Shown here piece by piece: positions 14,695 to 20,691 of a DNA stretch of 64,000 nucleotides. A model generated the notes under the pieces. It had not been told where the DNA came from, did no database searches, and saw nothing but the letters and a program-made list of their open reading frames with translations. The stretch comes from Candidatus Peregrinibacteria bacterium (lineage in GTDB: Bacteria > Patescibacteriota > Gracilibacteria > Peribacterales > Peribacteraceae). Every line of letters begins with the position of its first letter. The first letter of the stretch is position 1. The position numbers and the translations under genes are program-made. The DNA is taken from contig JAUSFD010000029.1 in NCBI GenBank assembly GCA_030649955.1, positions 62,001-126,000 on the forward strand. The letters run 5' to 3'.

Positions 14695-14749
14695 ATCGCT
14701 GCTCCAGGGGTACCTTCCCCCGCTCTTGAGAACGGGGGATAATGCTGCC

Positions 14750-15703
14750 GTGGAGCAAACACCGCACCCATCGGCCATGACCTTCCGCGAGAAGCTCTGG
14801 AACGTGATCCACAACGGCAAGGGGCAGACGGGACACGCGTTCAATCTGCTCTTGATCGTCCTCATCATTCTGTCCATTGCGATCCTCCCCCTCGAGCTCA
14901 TCCCCACACTCTCCGAGTACCACGGGATGCTCACCATCCTGGAAATCATCACGACCATCGCGTTCACGATTGAGTACATCCTGCGCATCTACGCTGCGCC
15001 GCGCAGACTCCGGTACATCTTCTCGTTCTACGGCTTCGTCGACCTCTTCTCCATCCTCCCGTTCTACTTCGCGTTCTTCGGGACACAGTACATAAGGGCT
15101 CTGCGCCTCATTCGCCTCGTGAAGATCGGGGAAATAGAAGCCGCTGCCGCGGAGGAGGAGGACGAGACCATGGAGCACGCGGTCGGGCTCGCAGACAATG
15201 AGCAGGTAGAATACATCGTCACGCACCATCCGCTCTACCTCTTCTTCGGCTGCATCCCCCCAGTACTCGCCTGCTCTGCCGGCCTCACGGTGCTCCTCAC
15301 GTTCCCATACCACCCGGTGTCTCTCTCGATCTCCGGTGTGCTCTTCTTCTTCGCACTCATCTTCCTGTGGAAGGCGTGGCTCGACTTCAGCTACGACGTG
15401 CTCTACATCACTTCGCAGCGCCTGATCTCGCAGAATCAGCACATCCTAGGAAGGAGCATCAACCAGGTGAACTACCACGCGATCACGAACGTGAAACCGT
15501 TCTACCCGAGCATGGTGAGTTACCTGCTCGGCTACGGATCCATTGTCATCGAGACTCCCTCAGCTGCGGTGGGACACATCGAGCTCAGCACCGTTCGCGA
15601 GCACGAGAAAGCCGCACACATCATCATGCACAAGTGCTTCCCTCCAGCACAGGAGAAAGTGGAGGCTTTGGGTGATGGACAAAGAGGGCAGGAAGGGCAG
15701 TAA
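14750..15703 (+). CDS. Voltage-sensor-like domain fused to a bacterial PH domain
   Basis: 317 residues from GTG 14750, 6 bases after GATAAT. Residues 30-126 are a four-helix voltage-sensor-like unit: S1 30-50, S2 60-82, S3 88-108 (YGFVDLFSILPFY, as in ion channels) and S4 with R116, R119, R122 and K125 at every third position. No pore helix or selectivity filter follows. Instead an acidic linker (130-142) leads to two membrane helices (163-183, 193-212) and a YdbS-like bacterial PH domain (213-297). The last residues (GQRGQEGQ) are encoded by a repeat element. The function is unknown; a voltage- or charge-responsive membrane sensor is one possibility. Confidence 0.7.
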   Translation: MEQTPHPSAMTFREKLWNVIHNGKGQTGHAFNLLLIVLIILSIAILPLELIPTLSEYHGMLTILEIITTIAFTIEYILRIYAAPRRLRYIFSFYGFVDLFSILPFYFAFFGTQYIRALRLIRLVKIGEIEAAAAEEEDETMEHAVGLADNEQVEYIVTHHPLYLFFGCIPPVLACSAGLTVLLTFPYHPVSLSISGVLFFFALIFLWKAWLDFSYDVLYITSQRLISQNQHILGRSINQVNYHAITNVKPFYPSMVSYLLGYGSIVIETPSAAVGHIELSTVREHEKAAHIIMHKCFPPAQEKVEALGDGQRGQEGQ

Positions 15704-15810
15704 TGGCAGGAAAGGCAAGCACGGCGAAGTAGCTCAAGTGCAAAAACCGTTCTTCGATCTTCCCTCTCTGCCCTTACTGCCCCTCCTCCTGCCTTTCCTG
15801 CCCTTCACCC
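15681..15810. repeat. GGGCAGGAA-type inverted repeat at two convergent gene ends
   Basis: The left arm 15681-15720 (AAAGAGGGCAGGAAGGGCAG and so on) and the right arm 15759-15810 (CCCTCTCTGCCCTTACTGCC and so on) are near-complementary purine and pyrimidine tracts. The arms supply the last codons of both convergent genes, which explains their odd Gly/Gln/Glu-rich tails. It probably acts as a bidirectional terminator. Confidence 0.75.
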
Positions 15811-18762: not shown

Positions 18763-20655
18763 TTAAGCACCCACGTCAATAGTGCTGAATTCTTTCTGCA
18801 CCATGGGTTGCTGCTTTGGAATATTGAGCGCCTTGCCGCCCTTGGGACCAGAAGGTTCTGGAGGTGGGGGTGAGGAGCCCCCTCCGCCTCCGCCTCCCCC
18901 GCGCCCATCGTCCGTACCCAAGAACAGCATGACGGGTTCTTTGGGACACCAAGCACCTATTTGCTGTAAATCTTTCACTTCTTCGTTATTCAATTTTTCG
19001 ACGCGATCGAGAATGCCTAGTCGCTCAGCGTCTGGCTTCGAAAACACGAGGTAGGCGTACCATTCCATTTTTTTATCACGAACGCGAATGCGCCGAACGT
19101 ACTGGACGCACTCCACTGCGAAAGATTCTTCAGAGAGGCGCTCAAGCAACTGCTCCTCACCAAGGAATCCACGGAGTTCACCCATGTGAGCTTGACCGAT
19201 CTCATAGAGGGATTTCCCGACCAGAGCCGCTGAATCTGCTTCAGGATTGCGAAACCTACTCATAGGAAGATGCGAGGATGCTGACAGGGTCTCCCCACCT
19301 GTTCGACGGTGCTTGACGATGGTGCCGTAGAACATCAGGGATGGTTGCTGGATATTCCCTCGAAACCTCATCACTGCAACGCGGAAACTGCCATCGAAGC
19401 TCCTTGGATTCTCTGAGCGCTTGACGTCGAAGATCGGTACTTTGCCGTTCATTTGTTCCATGACATCAACACTCATGAGAGGAGGCTGCAGCATCTGTTT
19501 CCCCTTCGGGAGTTCCGGCCTCTTCTTCATTAACGTTGCATCGCTGCAAATATCGCCCAGCAATGCCAAACTATTAAAACTGGCAATGCTCTTGTAGAGG
19601 AGTTGCAGACCATGAGCGCAGTGATACTCGAGTTCCCGCTTGGAATTGGACCCCTCGCTCAAGGGCACTCGTGCAAAGGATGGAGAAGCGCCCTCGAGAG
19701 TGTGCACTAGCTGCACTACTGCCTTGAGTAATTTGCTCCGGCGTTCGACTTGGTGAATGAATTCCTGTGTATCGACGCCCGCCTCCGGTACGGGCTCTTC
19801 CACTCGATGCATCATGGCTGGGAATCTGCGAGCAAGGAAGGAAATGAAGAGAGCCTCCGTCACAGAGTGGAGCACCTCGCCCAAAGCCGCTTCATCGATT
19901 TCCCTCACACGAATTTCCTCTGCAGACGTTCGTTGGCGGATTGCATTCCGCGCAGAGTACTGGAGTGTGTAGAAGAGGTAATGGAGGTACTCCTTAATGT
20001 CTCGCTCATCCGCATGAGTGAGCGCCTCTTCATTACCAATGCTCCCACCAGAAGACATGGGTAGGAAAGAGTGGTTCCGTAAATGTTGATGGAGTCCCAT
20101 TGATGCCTCCTCAAGGAGAGGGGCCATATCTCTGGCATACCGCATTGTTGCGGGTTCGCCCGAACACCTCAGGAGAATATCCCGCATCCCCCGTGGTCCG
20201 TTCGTACGACTACTGCTCGAGTACCGCAGCATCGTGAGCGTTGCATCTGTGCACTCTGGCTGTTCCACAAATGCGCTACTCTCTGCAATCGCATTGCGAA
20301 ACCCTGCGCTACGGTCTTTCTCACTCCCCAGTGGATCATCCCACTCGCGCATCATGCGTCCAACGTTCTGTACCTGCTGCTCCCGCTGAAGCTGCAGTGT
20401 CAGTGAACGGAGAAAGAGATCAATTCCCGTACCATCGAGAGCTCCGATGAGATTTGTGCGCTGCTCGACAGAGAGGATGCGCAGAGTCGCCATCACTTCT
20501 GCATCCTCGATAGTGCCATGAACAATGCCCCGCACGACGTTGACGATCTGCATTGCCGTCTCTGTTTGGGGGTACTGAAAGTACCCACGGAGGTCGAGGA
20601 GGAGCTCGACATGCTTTTCAAATCGCCTGTTCTGGTCATCGATGGTCTCGGCCAT
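18763..20655 (-). CDS. Orphan protein with glycine- and proline-rich C-terminus
   Basis: 630 residues from ATG 20655. I do not recognise a family. It is mostly helical and soluble with no membrane segment. Residues around 395-560 look more compact (IFDVKRSENPRSFDGSFRVAVMRFRG). The C-terminus has a run of eight glycines then SSPPPPEPSGPKGG, a disordered tail. GC is lower than in the flanking genes and the promoter is near consensus. It ends 3 bp from the convergent GT-C gene. Confidence 0.75.
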   Translation of the reverse strand: MAETIDDQNRRFEKHVELLLDLRGYFQYPQTETAMQIVNVVRGIVHGTIEDAEVMATLRILSVEQRTNLIGALDGTGIDLFLRSLTLQLQREQQVQNVGRMMREWDDPLGSEKDRSAGFRNAIAESSAFVEQPECTDATLTMLRYSSSSRTNGPRGMRDILLRCSGEPATMRYARDMAPLLEEASMGLHQHLRNHSFLPMSSGGSIGNEEALTHADERDIKEYLHYLFYTLQYSARNAIRQRTSAEEIRVREIDEAALGEVLHSVTEALFISFLARRFPAMMHRVEEPVPEAGVDTQEFIHQVERRSKLLKAVVQLVHTLEGASPSFARVPLSEGSNSKRELEYHCAHGLQLLYKSIASFNSLALLGDICSDATLMKKRPELPKGKQMLQPPLMSVDVMEQMNGKVPIFDVKRSENPRSFDGSFRVAVMRFRGNIQQPSLMFYGTIVKHRRTGGETLSASSHLPMSRFRNPEADSAALVGKSLYEIGQAHMGELRGFLGEEQLLERLSEESFAVECVQYVRRIRVRDKKMEWYAYLVFSKPDAERLGILDRVEKLNNEEVKDLQQIGAWCPKEPVMLFLGTDDGRGGGGGGGGSSPPPPEPSGPKGGKALNIPKQQPMVQKEFSTIDVGA

Positions 20656-20663
20656 GTTATAAT

Positions 20664-20691
20664 ATTTTAAATTAAAATCAATTTTTGTCAA
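20664..20691 (-). promoter_or_regulatory. Promoter of the orphan gene at 18763-20655
   Basis: Minus-strand TTGACA, a 16-bp spacer, TAAAAT and 8 bases to the ATG. One of the strongest promoters in the window. Confidence 0.7.

Follow-up and report, generated by a model that had tools for sequence, protein, structure and literature searches.

A 2024 review treats the voltage-sensing phosphatases (VSP), Hv1, TMEM266, and SLC9C1 as proteins that carry a voltage-sensor domain (VSD) and are not ordinary pore channels; the pore-less VSD effectors it names are eukaryotic, and Hv channels are stated to be absent from eubacteria and archaea (PMC13095418). Among bacterial membrane proteins with a PH domain, YdbS of B. 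subtilis has 159 amino acids, two transmembrane (TM) helices, and one PHb2 domain (PMC8657885). Xu et al. reported that bacterial PH (PHb) domains form rings, lack the lipid site and the basic surface of eukaryotic PH domains, and probably bind proteins, and they suggested that PHb proteins of the membrane serve as transporters or as pores that PHb rings hold together (PMC2817789). Within the window, i.e., the whole 64,000-nucleotide stretch of DNA that was analyzed, one gene joins a pore-less VSD to a YdbS-like module in a single open frame, with the following features.

14738..14743, + strand: -10-like box GATAAT, 6 nt before the GTG, putative promoter of a leaderless mRNA
14750..15703, + strand: coding sequence of the fusion (VSD, two TM helices, PHb domain), 317 amino acids, GTG start
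14825..14896, + strand: S1 helix, residues 26-49 (AlphaFold helix 25-49, pLDDT ~87-89)
14924..14995, + strand: S2 helix, residues 59-82, with the charge-transfer centre E65/F72/E75/R79 (family conservation)
15026..15073, + strand: S3 helix, residues 93-108, with D98 and P104 (both in 29/29 fusions)
15089..15127, + strand: S4, residues 114-126, with R116/R119/R122/K125 (basic run of at least 3 in 28/29)
15128..15232, + strand: acidic cytoplasmic linker, residues 127-161, in place of the S4-S5 linker and S5 entry (alignment)
15233..15298, + strand: TM5, residues 162-183, which opens the YdbS-like hairpin (AlphaFold, profile alignment)
15314..15376, + strand: TM6, residues 189-209 (AlphaFold, profile alignment)
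15377..15640, + strand: bacterial PH domain, residues 210-297, bPH_2/bPH_3 type (Pfam matches of the family, profile alignment)

The N-terminal half resembles the sensor of Kv channels. The Pfam Ion_trans profile matched residues 30 to 126 of the window protein (E value 9.1e-14) with positions 3 to 105 of its 241, which is the sensor part only and ends after S4; the best solved relatives were Kv2.1 and Kv4.3, and the profile of the fusion family matched the VSD of Kv4.3 with an E value of 2.3e-21. The sequence-only reading of this DNA had placed R116, R119, R122, and K125 at every third position of S4 after a typical S3, and this spacing proved exact when residues were numbered from the GTG; when the window protein was shuffled with its composition kept, 0.36% of the shuffles contained a four-fold run of this type. 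Across 29 full-length fusions, E/D65, F72, E75, D98, and P104 were each found in every protein and R79 in 28, so that the S2/S3 countercharges which that reading had proposed to check (E/D65, E75, and D98) are intact in all homologues. Their order and spacing (E-x6-F-x2-E-x3-R, then D) are those of E226/F233/E236/R240/D259 in Kv1.2. Homologues also keep the S4 charges, on which the earlier proposal had been made to depend: basic residues occupy every third position in runs of at least three in 28/29 fusions, the run in the window protein being four, and the family extends from the full Kv pattern R-R-R-R-K-R in L007 and a run of five in L088 to only two basic residues in L093. The outermost S4 charge of the window protein, R116, is kept in 9/29 fusions, and the total gating charge is therefore probably modest.

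AlphaFold, with an alignment of 14 rows that included channel VSD rows from viral contigs, predicted S1 to S3 with a pLDDT of ~90 and S4 with ~72, and the best Foldseek matches in the PDB were Kv4.3, Kv4.2, Kv1, and Kv2 channels, with TM-scores kept low by the remainder of the chain, which is unlike Kv channels. Since rows of this alignment are themselves channel VSDs, the structural match represents consistency and not independent proof; a two-row alignment gave a pLDDT of 51, and the VSD rows from viral contigs raised mainly the transmembrane part.

No P-loop, TVGYG filter, or S5-P-S6 pore was found in the window protein or in the fusion alignment, which bears out the initial statement that no pore domain follows S4. 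A hidden pore was likewise ruled out by the lack of a P-loop together with the early end of the Ion_trans match, and the gap between TM5 and TM6, only ~5 residues in the fusions, is too short to hold a P-loop. The position after S4 is occupied by the two-helix bacterial PH (YdbS-like) module that had been recognized from the sequence. By itself the window protein gave no Pfam PH match; among the 29 fusions, bPH_3 matched 26 (best E value 7e-5) and bPH_2 matched 20 (best E value 2.5e-5). Moreover, the profile of the C-terminal half aligned in hhalign with stand-alone proteins of the phylum at 99.9% (E value 3.4e-32) over 150 columns, that is, over the whole length, and nine of the ten stand-alone proteins aligned had a bPH_2 match. 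Such stand-alone 2TM-PHb proteins are common in the phylum and show the same E-V-R/K-H-P opening segment, two helices, and one PHb domain. Because the C-terminal half matches full stand-alone proteins, the fusion is best described as a VSD plus a whole YdbS-like protein, not as a VSD with a loose PH domain, and the second half of the linker (from residue 147) already belongs to the YdbS-like module. Conservation was lowest in the linker (0.37), with TM5 and TM6 also among the less conserved segments (0.49-0.50). At residues 211 to 300, where the alignment was shallow, AlphaFold pLDDT was 34 to 62, and the PHb fold is assigned from sequence profiles; no solved PHb relative was found by sequence. 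Stand-alone 2TM-PHb copies are also present in the genome of the window, and in L106 and L107 such a gene lies directly 3' of the fusion gene; this pairing, recorded also for L128:5215-5826 (- strand) and the corresponding L107 gene, is reminiscent of ydbS-ydbT.

Compared with the described systems, the fusion shares S1 to S4, the charge-transfer centre, and the S4 repeat with Kv channels (Kv4, Kv2, and Kv1, and the bacterial Kv channels of the Ion_trans type), but it has a YdbS-like module instead of S5-P-S6, and the S4 of the window protein is one helical turn shorter than that of channels. With Hv1 and TMEM266 it has in common a VSD that lacks a pore, whereas the Hv1 signature residues are absent and a PHb effector replaces the coiled coil. 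The C-terminal half corresponds over its whole length to the YdbS-like PHb2 membrane proteins (COG3402), from which the fusion differs by the added N-terminal VSD. By analogy, its logic may be that of Ci-VSP, in which a pore-less VSD is joined to a cytoplasmic effector, although the fusion is bacterial, contains two extra TM helices, and has no phosphatase or C2 domain; Pfam scans of the 29 fusions detected no PTEN-like phosphatase domain. The fusion most likely resembles the voltage-sensing phosphatases in mechanism while standing outside that family. Searches of the literature, mostly of papers available without subscription, for VSDs combined with bacterial PH domains, pore-less prokaryotic VSDs, and voltage sensors of Patescibacteria returned nothing relevant, and no described family with the order VSD then PH was found in the literature searched, in agreement with the sequence-only reading.

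To describe the distribution of the fusion, relatives were sought in the window's own family, in its class, and in the phylum, with one close-relative scan beyond the phylum. These searches yielded 29 distinct full-length proteins in which a single open frame spans both VSD and PHb and which are 28 to 58% identical to the window protein. They come from four families within a single class of the candidate phylum: the window's family contributed 8, f4 17, f158 3, and f159 1. The named match L031 belongs to Candidatus Peribacteria, the lineage of the window. In G024 both halves lie at contig ends, and in G661 and G571 the second half is cut by contig ends. The samples taken from the other classes of the phylum yielded stand-alone PHb proteins and channels and no fusion. 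The VSD tree placed all 29 fusions in one group apart from channels (support 92), and the PHb tree set the fusions as one group apart from 64 stand-alone rows (support 98). Since both half-trees keep the fusions together, the sequences are consistent with one old fusion that was vertically inherited. In the genome of the window the fusion is single copy and the only Ion_trans protein; f4 genomes encode, next to the fusion, a true K+ channel of its own with TVTTVGYGD, so the fusion is not simply the broken channel of the lineage.

Several other origins and roles were considered and rejected. Viral contigs carried ordinary K+ channels with a TVGYG-like filter and one short non-fusion frame, which speaks against a mobile or viral gene; matches on plasmids were confined to ion transporters aligned with the VSD, and none of them reached 80% coverage; and there was no meaningful PADLOC match to a defence system (one member, E value 0.008). 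In addition, a second pore-less VSD fusion occurs in the same class, at L017:709-1989 (- strand; G016:C43) and L145:57-1163, in which an Ion_trans sensor is followed by a bestrophin-type domain. The Bestrophin_2 score of the L017 protein was 27.4 bits against a cut-off of 27, and the L145 protein is apparently homologous and has no Pfam bestrophin match. Like the VSD-PHb family, this fusion sets a pore-less Ion_trans sensor on another membrane protein; it differs in the effector, and its VSD branches with channels, apart from the VSD-PHb family. In f157 genomes, many TGA codons break up the Ion_trans and PHb frames, which would fit a genetic code in which TGA specifies an amino acid.

At the 5' end of the gene, six out of seven Peribacteria relatives (L002 to L008) have a -10-like box 7 to 8 nt ahead of the start codon, and in L003 the distance is 13 nt. 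With the box of the window, this makes seven of eight genes with a box at 6 to 8 nt, which supports the GTG start and suggests leaderless transcripts for the Peribacteria fusion genes; a nearby ATG at 14777 may be an alternative start of the window frame. The upstream neighbor is an HD-domain gene (dGTPase-like, dgt; HD and HD_assoc), and the downstream neighbor is a convergent M23 peptidase gene. The order dgt/fusion/M23 is kept in most Peribacteria relatives, and the other families have different neighbors; because this arrangement is conserved in the window's family only, dgt and M23 probably have no functional link to the fusion. Comparison of the neighborhoods of relatives found no partner gene conserved across the whole fusion family. 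Between the convergent fusion and M23 genes, window positions 15681 to 15806 hold a purine-rich repeat with a 9-bp period (GGCAGGAAN) that forms a long imperfect stem-loop (z -5.2); the C-terminal residues of the window protein are encoded by it. Across the genome the motif GGGCAGNAANGGCAG was counted 59 times, against 0 in the reversed control, and its copies are frequently arranged in inverted pairs with 50 to 100 bp between them. Farther downstream, window positions 18763 to 20691 (- strand) contain a 642-amino-acid open reading frame with no Pfam match and a tail rich in glycine and proline.

Judging from these sequence features, we consider it an even bet that the gene product is a pore-less protein in which a Kv-type voltage sensor is coupled to a YdbS-like PHb scaffold. 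When the membrane potential changes, S4 would move across the constriction formed by F72, E75, and D98, the acidic linker would relay this movement to TM5, and the PHb domains would in consequence alter their packing or their oligomeric state. The PHb domain would then act by protein-protein contact, as a scaffold or by binding a partner, with neither lipid binding nor ion conduction, so that the overall logic may be like that of a voltage-sensing phosphatase or TMEM266, with the PHb assembly as the effector. The coupling step is the weakest part of this explanation because the linker is so poorly conserved. The modest gating charge, the S4 of the window protein that is one turn short, the reduced basic run of L093, the lack of a family-wide partner gene, and the low AlphaFold confidence for the PHb region also weigh against it. 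The original reading had also offered a lipid-charge sensor, which found no support; since bacterial PH domains of published structure oligomerise or bind proteins and have neither the lipid site nor the basic surface of their eukaryotic counterparts, lipid-charge sensing is unlikely (PMC2817789).

Two other readings rank behind this voltage-controlled scaffold, which remains the most likely of all, and are about equal to each other. It is rather improbable that the protein is a non-canonical voltage-gated channel or transporter in which TM5 and TM6 of several subunits line a pore or an export path. S1 to S4, two further TM helices, and a cytoplasmic ring-forming PHb domain would copy the layout of a six-helix channel, the second pore-less VSD fusion of the class bears a domain of the anion channel (bestrophin) type, membrane PHb proteins have been proposed as transporters or PHb-ring pores by Xu et al. 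(PMC2817789), and deletion of the PHb2 proteins DdE and DdF blocks export of enterocin DD14 (PMC8657885). However, the fusions lack a P-loop or selectivity filter, the loop between TM5 and TM6 is too short to supply one, and these two helices combine low conservation with no obvious conserved polar pore-lining residues. A similarly small share of probability goes to S1 to S4 as a relic, a structural or lipid-contact anchor of a YdbS-like protein that has lost voltage sensing, a view consistent with the many members that have only three or four S4 charges and with the loss of the outermost arginine in most. Indeed, the S1-S4 domains of several channel families are voltage insensitive. In contrast, the strict conservation of the charge-transfer residues in proteins of such low identity, with the S4 charges in register, argues that sensor function has been retained.

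The remaining two explanations carry far less weight. As the VSD has no pore attached, it might itself be an Hv1-like proton channel, with the PHb domain only organizing it. The Hv1 signature consists of an aspartate in S1 and RxWRxxR in S4, but in the fusion alignment S1 has no conserved aspartate in its hydrophobic core and S4 has no RxWRxxR, which makes a proton channel very improbable. An assembly chimera or a K+ channel pseudogene, for which the single copy and sole Ion_trans match in the window's genome might be cited, is refuted by the 29 full-length open frames from four families, on long and short contigs and with matching trees, and keeps only a vanishing probability.

If the voltage-controlled scaffold is true, VSDs would be re-used as portable sensors in prokaryotes too, and bacterial membrane-potential signaling would gain a candidate receptor of a non-channel type. 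These small bacterial proteins would also lend themselves to studies of VSD-effector coupling, and they would give a hint at the signal sensed by membrane PHb (YdbS) proteins. At a little short of even odds, bacteria may own a class of proteins that voltage controls but that are not channels, with a Kv-type sensor acting on a PH-domain assembly or, in the sister architecture, on a bestrophin, so that modular re-use of VSDs outside channels would not be confined to eukaryotes. The same VSD-PHb protein has been kept in ~30 related genomes of tiny uncultured bacteria.
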